Shown here piece after piece: positions 6,674 to 41,068 of a stretch of DNA of 64,000 nt (positions are counted from its first letter, which is position 1; each line of letters opens with the position of its first letter). The position numbers were made by a program, and so were the translations under genes. Below the pieces are notes generated by a model that was not told the origin of the DNA, made no database searches, and was given only the letters and a program-made list of their open reading frames with translations. Source of the stretch: a virus; IMG/VR virus record IMGVR_UViG_3300022752_005671, positions 62,001 to 126,000 of that record; one strand, given 5' to 3'.

Positions 6674-7876
6674 ATGTCTGTTTTTTTTAATGAAGACGTG
6701 TCTTCAAGAATACTTTTTGTTTTAAATAAATCTTTAGAGATTATAGAAAATTCAAAGAATCACGTTATAAACTTTGAAAAAGATAGAATCTTGTCTAAAA
6801 CAGATATTCAAACTTGCATCAATTACAAGTTTGAAGGAGAATTAGAAACTTCTATTCAAAAACTTTTAATTGAGCATGCTTTTAAAGCTGAAAAAATTTC
6901 TCCTGGTGGGTTTAAAAAAACGATAAAGTACTGTAATGATTTGTTTTTTAATAAAAAACATGATTTATTTGTGGAATCAGTTTTTTATCCTACCTTAGAG
7001 AATTTAAGGTGCATAATTAATTCATTTTGTGATGATGAGACTATTTCGAATTTATGTTTTGAAGCAATTCAATTGGCTGGATTTGGTGGGAAAATTTCTA
7101 TAGAAAAAAGCCTAAATTCTTCCACATCTATAGAATTAGTTGATGGCTATTCATTTAAACATGATCCTATAGGATTACAGCCGATAAAATTAAAACAACC
7201 TAGAGTTGTTTGCATAGATGGATATATCGAATCTGTTTCAGAGGTCAATCTACTTTTTGAAGGAGCAGTTCAACTTAAGCATCCTTTAGTTTTAATCTCT
7301 AGAGGCATGCATGAAGATGTATTAAACACTATAAAAGTTAATCGTGACAGAGGCTCGATGTTTGTTTATCCAGTTAAAATTGCTTTTGATTTAAATGGAA
7401 TAAATACGATAACTGATCTATCAACAATTTTAGGAAAACCTCCTGTTTCTTGCAATTTAGGAAATTTAATAAGTTCAACGTCAATTGAAGATTCAGTTGA
7501 AGTAAACGATATTATTATTTCTGGAAATAATTTAACCGTAAGAAATCCAAAAACTAGACATTCAGTTAACTTACACGTCAAATCATTAATAGAGAAAAGA
7601 CAATCTAGCGAAGTAAATGATGTGGAAGATTTATTGTCTTCAAGAATTAAATCTCTTTCTGGAAATTGTGTTATCATTAGACTCCCAGATAACTCAAACT
7701 ATGTAACAACTTCGCAAATAATAGATTATGTTTTAAGAGCTATTAAATCCATGTTGGATTACGGTGTCTTTTTTAAAGAAGAAAAAATTTATCTTTATGG
7801 AAGCTATAAATCTTCAAAAGAGATGTCAGATAAATTTTATTCTTTAATGAAACAAGTTTATGCGTATGTAGATTAA
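6674..7876 (+). CDS. GroEL-like (Cpn60) protein, divergent and shortened
   Basis: A 400-residue protein aligning by eye to group I chaperonins over most of its length. Residues 122-172 (ISNLCFEAIQLAGFGGKISI, then VDGYSF) match the GroEL stretch at the start of the apical domain. Residues 177-258 follow the apical domain, including LFEGAVQLKHPLVLISRG. Residues 323-338 (SRIKSLSGNCVIIRLP) match the GroEL segment RVAKLAGGVAVI, and D351 in IIDYVLRAI falls where the catalytic Asp398 of GroEL lies. However, the equatorial phosphate-binding loop GDGTTT is absent: the matching place (residues 54-60) reads GELETSI. The C-terminal equatorial part and Gly-Gly-Met tail are also missing (GroEL has about 548 residues). 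It may fold phage proteins, modify host GroEL, or serve another role. No co-chaperonin gene is seen here. Confidence 0.75.
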   Translation: MSVFFNEDVSSRILFVLNKSLEIIENSKNHVINFEKDRILSKTDIQTCINYKFEGELETSIQKLLIEHAFKAEKISPGGFKKTIKYCNDLFFNKKHDLFVESVFYPTLENLRCIINSFCDDETISNLCFEAIQLAGFGGKISIEKSLNSSTSIELVDGYSFKHDPIGLQPIKLKQPRVVCIDGYIESVSEVNLLFEGAVQLKHPLVLISRGMHEDVLNTIKVNRDRGSMFVYPVKIAFDLNGINTITDLSTILGKPPVSCNLGNLISSTSIEDSVEVNDIIISGNNLTVRNPKTRHSVNLHVKSLIEKRQSSEVNDVEDLLSSRIKSLSGNCVIIRLPDNSNYVTTSQIIDYVLRAIKSMLDYGVFFKEEKIYLYGSYKSSKEMSDKFYSLMKQVYAYVD

Positions 7877-8678: not shown

Positions 8679-8918
8679 ATGCATTATGGGCAATTAACTT
8701 CAGAAAAGTTAGCAAAAGAAAACGAAGACTGTAGAAGAATAGTAAAAGAAATCCTAAATGTAGGAATGTCTCAAAGACAACATATGTTTCTTATTTATTT
8801 ACTTTCTTTAGAGTTAGAAAACATTGAATACGTGCAAGCTTTGGCTGAGCTAATTAAAGAAATAGCTGGAGATCAAATTTTTATTTCAAAGAGAGAAGAC
8901 AATGGGACGATCAGCTGA
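8679..8918 (+). CDS. Hypothetical small protein
   Basis: A protein of about 79 residues, mostly helical and rich in Glu and Leu, with no domain I recognise. The ATG at 8679 directly follows the previous stop; a GTG nine bases earlier is the alternative. Its 3' end overlaps the ClpP-like gene by 17 bases, so the two are probably translated from one message. A link to ClpP function is possible from position only. Confidence 0.6.
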   Translation: MHYGQLTSEKLAKENEDCRRIVKEILNVGMSQRQHMFLIYLLSLELENIEYVQALAELIKEIAGDQIFISKREDNGTIS

Positions 8919-9507
8919 ACCTCAAAATTCTAGACTAGCTCCGAGTAGAAAATCAAATTCTGATGATCACGATGCAGCGATACTAATGTCTCCAAGCGAA
9001 GATTCTAGAATCGTTGTTTTATATGGAGGGGTCAGCGAGCAATCAATTGCTGCAACAATAGTTCAGCTTTTATATCTTGCAAATCAAAATCATAAACCAA
9101 TTCATCTAGTAGTTTCCACTTATGGTGGATCAGTAGATGAAATGTTCTCTCTTTATGACACTATTAAATTTTTACCATGTCCAGTTCATACAATTGCTTT
9201 AGGAAAAGTCATGTCCGCCGGCGTTCTTCTTCTTGCTTCCGGTGTTAAAGGAAAAAGAATGATAGGATCTTCTGCTAGGTTAATGATGCATCCTATTTCA
9301 GGTGGATTTTATGGAAATGTTTTTGAATCAGTCAACGAAACCAATGAACATAAAAGATTACATCATTTGATGACAACTGCTCTTCAAAATGAAACAAAGA
9401 TGACAGTCGAACAAATCGAATCAATTATGAAATCAGGACACGACTATTATCTAACTCCTGAAGATGCTATTAAACTTGGAATCGTTGACAAAATTATCGG
9501 TAAATGA
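8902..9507 (+). CDS. clpP: ClpP-like serine peptidase
   Basis: A 201-residue protein with the full ClpP fold signature. GGSVDE at 75-80 forms the oxyanion strand. GKVMSAG at 101-107 holds the nucleophile Ser105, RLMMHP the catalytic His130, and GHDYYLTPEDA the Asp181, followed by the usual GIVDKII end. ClpP forms two stacked seven-subunit rings and needs an AAA+ partner such as ClpX or ClpA; none is encoded here, so it may use the host partner or act alone. It is separate from the gp21-like prohead protease at 39267. The first 25 or so residues are polar and could be a propeptide. Degradation of host proteins or head maturation are both possible. Confidence 0.9.
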   Translation: MGRSAEPQNSRLAPSRKSNSDDHDAAILMSPSEDSRIVVLYGGVSEQSIAATIVQLLYLANQNHKPIHLVVSTYGGSVDEMFSLYDTIKFLPCPVHTIALGKVMSAGVLLLASGVKGKRMIGSSARLMMHPISGGFYGNVFESVNETNEHKRLHHLMTTALQNETKMTVEQIESIMKSGHDYYLTPEDAIKLGIVDKIIGK

Positions 9508-9546: not shown

Positions 9547-11193
9547 ATGCCTGCGTATGATTACAAAAAGTACTTTCCTTTTGAAAAAGTAAGGAAAGAA
9601 CAAGCTTCTGCAATTGAATTTGCTATTGATGCTTATGAATCTGGAAAAAGATATGTAGTTCTAGAACTTGGAACCGGCGTAGGAAAATCTGCAATAGGAA
9701 TTACAATTGCTAGGTATATGGAATCACATGCACCTGCAATGAGAAATGCAGATGGCGATTTAATGACAGGTGCTTATGTCATTACAACGCAAAAAATCTT
9801 ACAAGAACAATACCTAAGAGATTTTGGAGGCGGACCGAACAAAACATGTTTGGTTAGATCCATCAAGTCTAGTTCAAACTATCAATGTTCTTTTTATCCT
9901 GATCAATCTTGCGCTGAATCGAGGCGAATTTTAAGCAGCCTATCAAAACAGCTAAGCGGAACAGAGTTTCAAAAGCAATGTAAGAATCAATGTCCATATG
10001 GATTGGAAAAGCAAGAATTTATTGATTCTCCAATTTCTGTCACAAACTTTTCTTATTTTCTTGCTGAGACGATGTATGCAGGAAAGCTTGAACCGCGAGC
10101 ATTATTAATTGTTGATGAAGCTCATAATACAGAAACAGAGTTAGGAAAATTTATCGAAGTTACATTTTCTGAAAAGTTTGCAAAAGACGTGCTTAAGTGC
10201 AAACTTCCAAAGCTAATGGATCAAACTTCAGTTTATGATTGGATTTGTAAAGTTTATAAGAAATCAGTTTCAAAATATATTAAAGAACTTGAAAAAAATC
10301 TTGTAAAACTAAGCGGTGATATTGAAGGTTATGGAACTTTTTCAAAACAGTATGAAATGTTAGATAAACACATCTGCAAAATTAATAGGTTCATCGAAGT
10401 CTATAAACCTAGCAATTGGATCATGAATGTTTCTTACCCTTCTCCTGACAACAAGAAGGCCGGTAAAAAATTTGAATTTAAACCGATTGATGTTTCACCA
10501 TATAGTAATGATGTATTTTTTAAACATGGTGCAAGAGTTCTTATGATGTCAGCTACCATAGTTGATAAAGATATTTTTTGTGAATCATTAGGAATTAAAA
10601 AAGAAGATATAGCATTTTTAAACATATCTTCTCCATTTCCAATTGAGAATAGACCGATTCACTTCATTCCAGTAGGATCAATGTCAAAAAATAACATTGA
10701 TAAAACCTTACCAGTAATGGCTGAAACAGTCAGGATGTTGTTAGAAAAACATTCAAAAGAAAAAGGAATAATTCATTGTGCAAATTATAAAGTTGCAAAA
10801 TTTATTAATGATCAACTAAATGATCCTCGTCTGCTAATGCATGATTCTACTAATAGAGACCAAATGTTGAAATTTCATGTTGAATCAAAAGATCCTACTA
10901 TTCTATTGAGCCCTTCTATGATGGAAGGTGTAGATTTAAAAGACGATCATAGTAGATTTCAAATTATTTGTAAAGTTCCTTTTCCTTACTTAGGAGATCT
11001 TGTTATTCAAAAAAGAATGGAAAAAAACCAATTTTGGTATCCTTATATGACCGCAAAGTCTGTCATACAATCGTTAGGTCGTTCAATAAGAAATGAAAAT
11101 GATTTTGCGATATCATACATTCTTGATTCGGATTGGGAACGTTTCTATAAAATGAATCGATCAATGTTTCCAAAAGATTTTTTGGTATCATAA
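9547..11193 (+). CDS. DinG/XPD-family superfamily 2 helicase
   Basis: A 548-residue helicase. Motif I is LGTGVGKSA (41-49), motif II is DEAH (190-193), then LMMSAT for motif III, MMEGVDLKDD for motif V, and QSLGRSIRNEND for motif VI. Between motifs I and II are cysteines at about 101, 114, 122, 145 and 149, fitting the four-cysteine iron-sulphur domain of XPD/DinG enzymes, which unwind DNA 5' to 3'. Length is close to archaeal XPD and shorter than E. coli DinG. It likely acts in phage DNA repair, recombination or restart. The ATG has no clear Shine-Dalgarno; a TATACT lies nine bases upstream. Confidence 0.88.
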   Translation: MPAYDYKKYFPFEKVRKEQASAIEFAIDAYESGKRYVVLELGTGVGKSAIGITIARYMESHAPAMRNADGDLMTGAYVITTQKILQEQYLRDFGGGPNKTCLVRSIKSSSNYQCSFYPDQSCAESRRILSSLSKQLSGTEFQKQCKNQCPYGLEKQEFIDSPISVTNFSYFLAETMYAGKLEPRALLIVDEAHNTETELGKFIEVTFSEKFAKDVLKCKLPKLMDQTSVYDWICKVYKKSVSKYIKELEKNLVKLSGDIEGYGTFSKQYEMLDKHICKINRFIEVYKPSNWIMNVSYPSPDNKKAGKKFEFKPIDVSPYSNDVFFKHGARVLMMSATIVDKDIFCESLGIKKEDIAFLNISSPFPIENRPIHFIPVGSMSKNNIDKTLPVMAETVRMLLEKHSKEKGIIHCANYKVAKFINDQLNDPRLLMHDSTNRDQMLKFHVESKDPTILLSPSMMEGVDLKDDHSRFQIICKVPFPYLGDLVIQKRMEKNQFWYPYMTAKSVIQSLGRSIRNENDFAISYILDSDWERFYKMNRSMFPKDFLVS

Positions 11194-11244
11194 TTTTACT
11201 CCTGATTCGTGATGCCTATATTTTCGCAAGGAGGATAATCCAAT

Positions 11245-11445
11245 ATGTCAGAAAATGAAGTTTTAGCAAAGTGGTCAGATCTTAAGTCTCTTGTTGAGTC
11301 TCTTGAGCATGATGTTGCAAAGAATGCCAAAGGAACAGCAGCTGCAGGCGTCAGAGTTCGTAAAGGACTGCGCGACCTTAAGACAAAAGCTGGTGAGCTT
11401 GTGAAGCTTACTCTTACCTTAGACAAGACAAAGAAGAAAGACTGA
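11245..11445 (+). CDS. Hc1-like histone H1-like basic protein
   Basis: A 66-residue basic protein. The core AAGVRVRKGLRDLKTKAGEL resembles the chlamydial Hc1 pattern in which a helix with a KGNKAAAQRVR motif is followed by LEK and a lysine-rich run; here AKGTAAAGVRVRKGLRDL occupies that place. Hc1 proteins bind and compact DNA. The start has an AGGAGG-type site about eight bases upstream, and a clear terminator follows, so this is a discrete, probably well expressed unit. Its codon use (AAG, CTT, GTT, CGC) is less AT-biased than its neighbours. It may condense phage DNA or help silence the host nucleoid. The match is by eye over a short protein, so it is moderate. Confidence 0.6.
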   Translation: MSENEVLAKWSDLKSLVESLEHDVAKNAKGTAAAGVRVRKGLRDLKTKAGELVKLTLTLDKTKKKD

Positions 11446-11472: not shown

Positions 11473-11506
11473 GGGATACATATATTAACATGTGTATCCC
11501 TTTTTT
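11473..11506 (+). terminator. Rho-independent terminator after the Hc1-like gene
   Basis: GGGATACA at 11473-11480 pairs with TGTATCCC at 11493-11500, giving an eight-base perfect stem that can extend inward by a few weaker pairs, followed by six T residues. It lies 28 bases after the stop of the Hc1-like gene. Confidence 0.85.
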
Positions 11507-11538
11507 ATTTAAAAAAGCAAAATTATGACGAGGTATAA

Positions 11539-11937
11539 ATGCCAGCACCAAGAAGAGCAATTTTAGCTGATATTAGTGAACAAAAGTTAGATCCAAATCA
11601 AGTTTATACACAAACTAACAAATCAGGAAAGTTTGTTGTATCTTCAGATGAAGTTGTTCAATATAAAAAGAAAGAAACTAAGTCTAGTTCAAAAGTTTTA
11701 GAACAAAAGTTATCTGTAGAAAAAACTTTAAAAAATGACGATGAATTAATAGTCATTAAAAAAGATGAAAATTTGCATGTTACTATGAATGAAGAAACAA
11801 ATGATTCTGTAAAAGCTACAGATGAAGAACATACAACTGACCATAAAGAATCTATGAATGATGTTGTAAGTTCTCAGATTATGAATGTAACTACAAAATC
11901 TTCAGAATCTTCAAAGAAAAAACAAAAGAAAAAGTGA
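11539..11937 (+). CDS. Hypothetical lysine-rich low-complexity protein
   Basis: A 132-residue, strongly charged protein rich in Lys, Ser, Thr and Glu, ending in a run of lysines. It begins MPAPRRAILADISEQKLDP. Most of it is likely disordered. No family is recognised. An ACGAGG site lies before the ATG. It starts just after the terminator of the Hc1-like gene and ends two bases before the stop of a convergent minus-strand gene. A basic, disordered tail would fit nucleic-acid or protein binding, which is inference. Confidence 0.6.
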   Translation: MPAPRRAILADISEQKLDPNQVYTQTNKSGKFVVSSDEVVQYKKKETKSSSKVLEQKLSVEKTLKNDDELIVIKKDENLHVTMNEETNDSVKATDEEHTTDHKESMNDVVSSQIMNVTTKSSESSKKKQKKK

Positions 11938-11939
11938 AA

Positions 11940-12188
11940 TCAAATTAAAATTGAATTTTTTATCTTTTGAATGATTGTTTTTTCAATTTGACAAATTCTC
12001 ATTCTAGTTAATCCATAGATTTTTCCAATTTTTTGAAGTGTATAAGGGCCATTTTGAGAAGCAATAATAACGCAATTAAAGCTGTCGATATTGTTAATGT
12101 GATGTCGGCAGCTTTTCTTTTGGCAGCTTACTTTGTGCTTGGCATGTGCTTCAAAACATTTTATGTTGTTAATTACTGGTAATTTCAT
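11940..12188 (-). CDS. Small protein with cysteine cluster and sigma-70 region 4-like helix-turn-helix
   Basis: An 82-residue protein. The C-terminal part TLQKIGKIYGLTRMRICQIE (about residues 50-69) closely follows the sigma-70 region 4.2 helix-turn-helix pattern, in which LEEIG is followed by VTRERIRQIE and a lysine-rich helix that contacts the -35 element. The N-terminal part carries Cys residues near 11, 21 and 26 plus several His, which could bind zinc. No region 2 is present, so it cannot be a full sigma factor. It may be a transcription regulator or a co-activator that touches RNA polymerase. It is the only minus-strand gene between 6025 and 53680, and it is divergent from phoH. Confidence 0.7.
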   Translation of the reverse strand: MKLPVINNIKCFEAHAKHKVSCQKKSCRHHINNIDSFNCVIIASQNGPYTLQKIGKIYGLTRMRICQIEKTIIQKIKNSILI

Positions 12189-12252: not shown

Positions 12253-13617
12253 ATGACAAAGACATATGTTTTAGACACCAACGTTTTATTGAGTGATCCT
12301 GATAGCATCCACAGTTTTGAGGACAACGACTTATTAATTCCTATTCTTGTTTTGGAAGAGTTAGATAAACACAAAACAAGAAACGATGATGTAGGTAGAA
12401 ATGCTAGGCAGGTTAGTAGAATGCTTGACTCAATGAGAAATGAGTCAAGTTTTCATGATGGAGTAAAAACTAGAGGAGGAGGAACAATTAAGATTGTTTC
12501 TTCTGAAGTTGATCCATTGTCATTGCTTCCTAAAGAAATGTTAAAAAGCTCTAGCTTAGATAACATGATCATAGGATTTATGTTGACTCAAAAAGACAAG
12601 AACCTAGTTCTTGTTTCAAAAGATATCAACATAAGAGTTAAGTGTGACGCTCTTGGTCTAAAGTGTCAAGATTATTTAAATATGAGAATTTCTTCTGACA
12701 TTGATGAATTGTACAGAGGAGTTAAGTTAATTCATGTTAATGAAGATATCGTTGATTCATTTTATAGAGATGGAAAGATAGAGAAAGAAGTAGCGACGAA
12801 GGAACAAATTTATTCAAACCAAATAGTAATTTTAAAGACTGTCGATGAAAGAGGAAATACTGTTAAATCAGCGATGTCTAGATCTTATGAAGATGGAACA
12901 TTAAGATCTCTTTCTAAAATTGAAAGTGTTTTTGGATTAAGGCCAAGAAATAAAGAACAACTATTTTCTTTAGATTTATTAATGGACGAAAATATAAAGT
13001 TGCTTTCGATGATCGGAAAAGCTGGTTGCGGAAAGACACTTTTAGCAATTGCAGCAGGATTAGAACAATTATCTTCTGTTGGATCCCAACCAAAATATCA
13101 AAAATTAATAGTTTCGCGACCGGTTCAACCTGTTGGAAAAGACATAGGATATCTTCCAGGTACTTTAGAAGAGAAGATGGAACCATGGATAGCACCTGTT
13201 AAAGACAATCTAGATTTTCTTTTAGGTATTAATGGTAAGAAATCAGGAAGAAAATCAAAAGATAATCTAATGTCATCTGATCCTTATATGGAATTGATGC
13301 AACAAAGAGGATTAATTGAGATTGAAGCAATTTCTTTTATTCGTGGTAGATCAATTCCAAACGCATTTATTATCATTGATGAAGCACAAAATTTATCTAT
13401 GCATGAATTAAAAACCATTGTCACTAGAGTAGGAGAAGGAACAAAAATTGTTTTGACTGGAGACATTGAACAAATAGATAATGTCGAAGTTGATGCTTAT
13501 ACGAACGGTTTAACTTATGCAATTGAAAAGTTTAAAGAACATTCGATTGCAGCACATGTTACCTTACTAAAAGGAGAAAGAAGTCCATTAGCAACTTTAG
13601 CTTCAAAGATTTTGTAA
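12253..13617 (+). CDS. phoH: PIN domain-PhoH ATPase fusion (PhoH2 type)
   Basis: A 454-residue protein with two domains. Residues 1 to about 140 are a PIN nuclease: TYVLDTNVLL holds Asp8, LEELDKHK the next acidic pair, and LVSKD the later Asp. Residues from about 225 form the PhoH ATPase, with Walker A GKAGCGKT (255-262), VSRPVQPVGKDIGYLPG, and Walker B FIIIDEAQN (372-380) followed by a LTGDIEQID sensor. PIN-PhoH proteins are RNA-directed ATPases and nucleases, and PhoH genes are common in marine phages. The role in infection is unsettled. It starts from the divergent region shared with the sigma-4-like gene. Confidence 0.92.
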   Translation: MTKTYVLDTNVLLSDPDSIHSFEDNDLLIPILVLEELDKHKTRNDDVGRNARQVSRMLDSMRNESSFHDGVKTRGGGTIKIVSSEVDPLSLLPKEMLKSSSLDNMIIGFMLTQKDKNLVLVSKDINIRVKCDALGLKCQDYLNMRISSDIDELYRGVKLIHVNEDIVDSFYRDGKIEKEVATKEQIYSNQIVILKTVDERGNTVKSAMSRSYEDGTLRSLSKIESVFGLRPRNKEQLFSLDLLMDENIKLLSMIGKAGCGKTLLAIAAGLEQLSSVGSQPKYQKLIVSRPVQPVGKDIGYLPGTLEEKMEPWIAPVKDNLDFLLGINGKKSGRKSKDNLMSSDPYMELMQQRGLIEIEAISFIRGRSIPNAFIIIDEAQNLSMHELKTIVTRVGEGTKIVLTGDIEQIDNVEVDAYTNGLTYAIEKFKEHSIAAHVTLLKGERSPLATLASKIL

Positions 13618-40765: not shown

Positions 40766-41068
40766 ATGAAGCTTACATCAACAGTATTAAAGAGAATTAT
40801 TGCAGAAGAAGTTGCCAAAATCAAGGAAGCAAAACTTTTTGGTGACATGGAATCTACAGAGGATGCAGCAAAGGACGCAGAAGAAGTTGATGCTGATGAA
40901 TATGCAGATTCTCTCGAGCATCATGTAGATCACTATAAGGCTCTTGGATTAGAAGAAGCTCGTTTAGTCAAGAGACTTTCTCAAATTCAAGAAGCAAAGA
41001 AAAAAGTTGCAAAAAAAGTTGTTGCAAAGAAAGCAGCAGCAAAAAAAGCACCAAAAAAGTCAAAGTGA
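40766..41068 (+). CDS. Small prohead core-like protein with Lys/Ala-rich tail
   Basis: A protein of 100 residues. The N-terminus (MKLTSTVLKRIIAEEVAKIK) is an amphipathic helix like that of the previous protein. The middle is acidic (EDAAKDAEEVDADEY). The end is a run of Lys/Ala repeats (KKVVAKKAAAKKAPKKSK). T4 gp67 is likewise a small acidic and basic core protein whose fragments stay in the head. The ATG at 40766 with CACGAGG upstream is preferred over a TTG at 40748. The basic tail could bind DNA. Confidence 0.6.
   Translation: MKLTSTVLKRIIAEEVAKIKEAKLFGDMESTEDAAKDAEEVDADEYADSLEHHVDHYKALGLEEARLVKRLSQIQEAKKKVAKKVVAKKAAAKKAPKKSK

Follow-up and report, generated by a model that had tools for sequence, protein, structure and literature searches.

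A 66-residue Hc1-family protein at a conserved locus in a lineage of large phages

What does a short relative of the chlamydial histone-like protein Hc1 do in a phage, and how much of the function of Hc1 can be carried over to it? The question is raised by a reading frame at 11245–11445 (+) of the window, the 64,000-base stretch of DNA analysed here, which comprises bases 62001–126000 of a 187,069-base virus record. A first-pass annotation had described it as a stand-alone, strongly expressed phage unit for an Hc1-like basic protein that might pack phage DNA or condense the host nucleoid. The frame starts with ATG and encodes 66 residues, including AKGTAAAGVRVRKGLRDL. Its dN/dS against every close relative is about 0.04–0.12, indicating purifying selection, and it is therefore a gene and not a chance reading frame. 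The product is indeed basic, although mildly so, with a net charge of about +4 to +5. Its codons are less AT-biased, as had been claimed, without being extreme: the gene ranks 18th of 170 in GC (0.43, with a median over genes of 0.35) and 22nd of 170 in GC3 (0.34, compared with 0.24 for other genes). When codon adaptation to the capsid and sheath genes is scored, it comes 27th of 170; the highest value in this phage (0.81) belongs to a 100-residue protein of no known family in the head cluster (40766–41068), which is probably an abundant virion protein. That the setting is a phage is clear from the T4-like terminase, portal, prohead protease, major head and tail-sheath genes on the record, on which a tRNA search found none.

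The proposed likeness to Hc1 holds at the level of the family. The first-pass annotation had named a profile search against PF07432 as the check, and the Pfam Hc1 model matched with 42.3 bits (E 7e-11; profile positions 5–46 of 57), above its curated gathering cut-off of 23.5 bits. By comparison, the chlamydial HctA equivalog (NCBIfam NF051889; 121 positions, cut-off 100 bits) scored 17.4 bits, below its cut-off, and was matched at positions 9–38 only; since this match is confined to the N-terminal part, the phage protein is a PF07432 member and not HctA. In chlamydial Hc1 the N-terminal half is the dimerisation half, and DNA binding resides in the lysine-rich C-terminal domain (PMC2848022, PMC3469542). 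HctA has about 125 residues, as opposed to 66 in the phage protein, which is homologous to its N-terminal half and lacks the lysine-rich C-terminal domain, the tail being merely DKTKKKD. On these comparisons, the counterpart of the phage protein in chlamydial Hc1 is the N-terminal half alone. Because the DNA-binding domain of HctA is missing, neither DNA binding nor the packing of phage DNA or condensation of the host nucleoid follows from homology, and condensation on the large scale of Hc1 is not expected from length and charge alone. The winged-helix globular domain of the eukaryotic linker histone H1 is absent as well, the prediction being an all-helical two-helix hairpin with no strands. 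A DASH_Dad3 match in Pfam (E 0.014) fell under the cut-off and was ignored. PHROGs held no family for the protein, a PDB sequence search returned no relative, and tblastn against 50,697 GenBank phage records gave no match even at E ≤ 1. A search of IMG/VR with the protein itself yielded 48 relatives, which are viral; the gene is known from metagenomic phages.

AlphaFold2, given 31 relatives, predicts a two-helix hairpin with helices at residues 3–28 and 32–65 (mean pLDDT 91.5). Across 65 distinct relatives, W10, D23, K26, G35, R37, R39 and R43 are 100% conserved, and positions 9, 14, 29, 40, 54 and 61 hold a basic residue in 85–98%; K54, which lies on the basic helix 2 of the predicted hairpin, is near-invariant. 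The median net charge in these relatives is −2 for helix 1, +5 for helix 2 and +1 for the tail that follows the hairpin. This tail is variable, with a median of 8 residues, and is net positive in 42 of the 65 and not in the other 23; longer tails rich in K, A and P are found in the relatives L096, L104, L109 and L139. The pattern of residues and charge thus indicates that the conserved feature is the basic helix 2 together with the hairpin tip, and not a lysine-rich tail. When its fold was searched, neither PDB nor BFVD yielded a match at E ≤ 0.001, and hence no meaningful match to a DNA-binding protein; a two-helix hairpin is too generic to be a diagnostic fold. With E values above 0.001, the first viral match in BFVD came from the virus NIOZ-UU157 and the third was named 'Histone H1 [uncultured virus]'.

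The claim of a stand-alone unit is upheld by a conserved promoter-like element, a Shine–Dalgarno sequence, a terminator and conserved synteny. A pattern scan and conservation place the promoter-like element, TTTACT-N16-TATATT, at 11195–11222 (+). Elements of the form TTTAC(T/A/C)-N16/17-TATA(T/C)T precede the ATG by 17–26 nt in all 24 clade members, whose spacers have diverged, and the element is present before the gene in 44 of the 65 distinct relatives, compared with 44 of 13,000 random 75-mers (0.3%) from the same loci; in many of the remaining relatives, looser versions can be seen by eye. The site before the Hc1 gene is the top-scoring one of the 187-kb genome, at 14.4 (a value inflated because this very site belongs to the set behind the scoring matrix); the runner-up reaches 11.0, roughly the highest score that shuffled sequence gives by chance. 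Upstream of the major head and tail-sheath genes no comparable site was found, only low scores, and a search for k-mers shared as late promoters upstream of genes gave AT-rich words only. A generic sigma-70 scan was not significant (6 sites against 6.4 expected), so the significance of the promoter rests on its conservation. A strong ribosome-binding site had been claimed, and AAGGAGG does stand 10 nt before the ATG (11228–11234, +); a 5-nt Shine–Dalgarno core precedes the gene in 57 of the 65 relatives. The terminator was likewise found, by a terminator scan, as an intrinsic terminator-like hairpin with a T run at 11473–11508 (+), the hairpin being placed at 11473–11500; the region holds 2 such sites where 0.5 would be expected. 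Many relatives have a comparable hairpin 3′ of the gene, with GGGATACA..TGTATCCC or another stem, and 16 of 65 satisfy a strict perfect-stem rule. From these signals strong expression may be inferred. As the conserved element is dedicated to this gene and has no counterpart at the virion genes, the Hc1 gene is probably transcribed by itself, under control not common to the virion genes. The element may point to early expression, and one idea is that the adjacent sigma-70 region 4 protein might recognise it.

The gene also has a fixed place. Upstream of it lie a syntenic ClpP-like protease (8902–9507, +; PF00574) and a DNA helicase of the DEAD_2/Helicase_C_2, XPD/DinG-like type (9547–11193, +), assigned by Pfam, PHROG and synteny. 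Downstream are a 132-residue reading frame (11539–11937, +), which has no family in Pfam or PHROG and by locus comparison occurs in near relatives only, a convergent stand-alone sigma-70 region 4 protein (11940–12188, −; PF04545) and a PIN + PhoH ATPase (12253–13617, +; Pfam, PHROG and locus comparison), which serves as a syntenic anchor. The order GroEL-like, o84/o158/o82, ClpP, helicase, Hc1, sigma region 4, PhoH recurs in nearly all loci of the window clade, and in nearly all syntenic loci the sigma region 4 gene lies on the opposite strand between Hc1 and PhoH. The protein it encodes is without other sigma regions and may be a phage transcription factor. The GroEL-like protein, of about 400 residues (6674–7876), is recognised by PHROGs (phrog_5725) and not by Pfam; it is a divergent chaperonin of reduced length that keeps its place in the gene order throughout the lineage. 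As the loci had first been found with Hc1 as the seed, the search was repeated with PhoH, and Hc1 was then found 0.7–1.2 kb upstream of PhoH in 47 of 47 informative viral contigs, that is, those with PhoH at least 57% identical and enough upstream sequence, contigs of 298–369 kb among them. Below about 53% PhoH identity, many loci have no Hc1 nearby. On this comparison of loci, Hc1 is a vertically kept gene and no stray acquisition.

In two relatives the Hc1 gene is immediately followed by a phage-encoded tmRNA (L034:5262-5665 and L039:5257-5621; Rfam RF00023, 112 and 110 bits; tag ANDSNYNTYALAA and ANDSNYSTYALAA, respectively), with tRNA-Met and tRNA-Asn upstream. The sole match in a cellular genome, contig L058 of a Legionellales MAG, was rejected as a host gene: it holds GroEL-like, o158, Hc1, sigma region 4 and PhoH in phage order, and, of the genomes sampled in its class, the remaining 142 have no PF07432. 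A terminase search of this MAG found none, so that the contig counts as a phage fragment by synteny only.

By capsid and terminase, the nearest isolates are Flavobacterium phage immuto and Microcystis phage Mel-JY01, all at less than 50% identity. Gene 75 of immuto (MW353175) encodes a 57-residue PF07432 protein that scores 23.5 bits, exactly at the cut-off, and has no BLASTP similarity to the window protein; it stands directly after GroEL, in a locus that differs from that of the window. Short PF07432 proteins of Bacteroidota type (L044–L048) are likewise single hairpins, of 57–60 residues and with up to 82 bits, and a Bacteroides control genome also has a PF07432 match. These proteins, however, are of the AGTRVRK/AGVRVRKGLQ type, with no Shine–Dalgarno sequence and without the synteny of the window clade, whose members have an extra N-terminal MSxxxVLxKW together with AGVRxRKGLR. 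Shine–Dalgarno cores precede 64 of 120 larger genes of the window phage, against 12% by chance, and are almost lacking in L045, L047 and L048; given this difference in usage, the host of the window phage is probably not a bacteroidote. PF07432 proteins have been reported from four complete genomes of moraphages, large aquatic phages mostly predicted to infect Bacteroidota (PMC12619734, Perez-Hernandez et al., November 2025). The window phage resembles them, as compared by the published description, in being one of the large aquatic tailed phages with such a protein, and differs in that its Shine–Dalgarno usage is unlike that of the Bacteroidota-type relatives. Elsewhere on the record, outside the window, DNA polymerase III alpha is seemingly split over two reading frames (G000:C1:170726-175489) with a Phage_endo_I-like frame between the halves, which would fit an intron, an intein or a split gene, and a phage actin homologue (Volactin, 226.8 bits) lies near an IMP dehydrogenase gene (G000:C1:168658-169662).

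The reading that we prefer, to which we give about even credence, is that the short phage Hc1 member acts as a small architectural nucleic-acid-binding protein in the infected cell. The hairpins would form dimers or larger oligomers, in keeping with the homologous half of chlamydial Hc1; DNA or RNA would be contacted by the short lysine-containing tail together with the basic side of helix 2; and the protein, made in quantity and apart from the virion genes, would organise phage DNA or alter the host nucleoid. In its favour are the division of the predicted hairpin into an acidic-to-neutral helix 1 and a basic helix 2 that carries all three invariant arginines, and the neighbouring genes, which include those for enzymes acting on nucleic acids (helicase and PhoH) and for a protein resembling a transcription factor (sigma region 4). 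The low net charge, the 23 of 65 tails that are not net positive and the lack of a meaningful fold match to a DNA-binding protein count against it, and the conserved charged residues could instead serve folding of the hairpin or a protein interface. A rival reading is a role as a protein–protein adaptor, in which the dimerisation half of Hc1, devoid of DNA binding, would pair with a partner of phage or host origin, such as the helicase encoded next to it, RNA polymerase or a sigma factor. The half of Hc1 that is matched is the dimerising one (PMC2848022, PMC3469542), the invariant W10 and D23 are atypical as DNA-contact residues, and a sigma region 4 gene adjoins Hc1 in nearly all syntenic loci. 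Yet dimerisation alone hardly accounts for a single helix that bears three invariant arginines as well as a conserved lysine, and K/A/P-rich tails are added in many relatives; we regard such an adaptor as quite unlikely.

Two further roles would keep the protein closer to its namesake. It might serve early takeover of the host, binding or condensing the nucleoid and shutting down host transcription, in the manner of HctA in E. coli, where expression of HctA condenses the chromosome (PMC8343073, PMC2848022). A sigma-70-like element of its own, a strong Shine–Dalgarno sequence and a terminator suggest high output independent of the late genes; however, the domain with which HctA binds DNA is missing, and a conserved element that is merely sigma-70-like does not imply early timing, which makes this role unlikely. 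Alternatively, the protein might be packaged in the virion and compact the DNA so that the genome fits inside the head; genome compaction during packaging is what was suggested for the moraphage proteins (PMC12619734). The occurrence of Hc1 in large-genome phages, on contigs of up to 369 kb, and the high GC3 of the gene, which resembles that of the major capsid gene, agree with this. In tailed phages, though, it is the terminase motor that fills the head; the gene sits apart from the head and packaging cluster (34–45 kb), among helicase, PhoH and ClpP genes; the capsid and tail-sheath genes are without its promoter element; and the other large phages checked (PP395634, LR756508, LR756511 and NC_004735) gave no Hc1 match. 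Packaging is, in our judgement, improbable. A stronger form of the architectural reading, in which a miniature nucleoid protein, near-universal in a widespread lineage of large phages and made from an early-type promoter of its own, would reorganise the DNA of the infected cell by the Hc1 hairpin only, is put forward tentatively, as a possibility that we consider somewhat doubtful.

The moraphage report and the structure-library entry named as a histone H1 of an uncultured virus mean that Hc1 proteins in large phages were already known, and sequences had revealed stand-alone Hc1 hairpins in both Bacteroidota and large phages. As far as the literature consulted shows, the fixed locus and near-universality of Hc1 in the clade are new, as are the dedicated promoter-like element, the missing DNA-binding half of HctA and the conserved basic helix. 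The finding corrects a common shortcut, in that 'histone H1-like' need not mean 'condenses DNA'. The lineage offers a clean test case: a protein of 58–92 residues, seven of them invariant, which is encoded at a fixed locus behind a promoter-like element of its own and lacks the tail that explains chlamydial Hc1. Should reorganisation of DNA by the hairpin only prove true, the supposed dimerisation domain would itself be a nucleic-acid-binding module.
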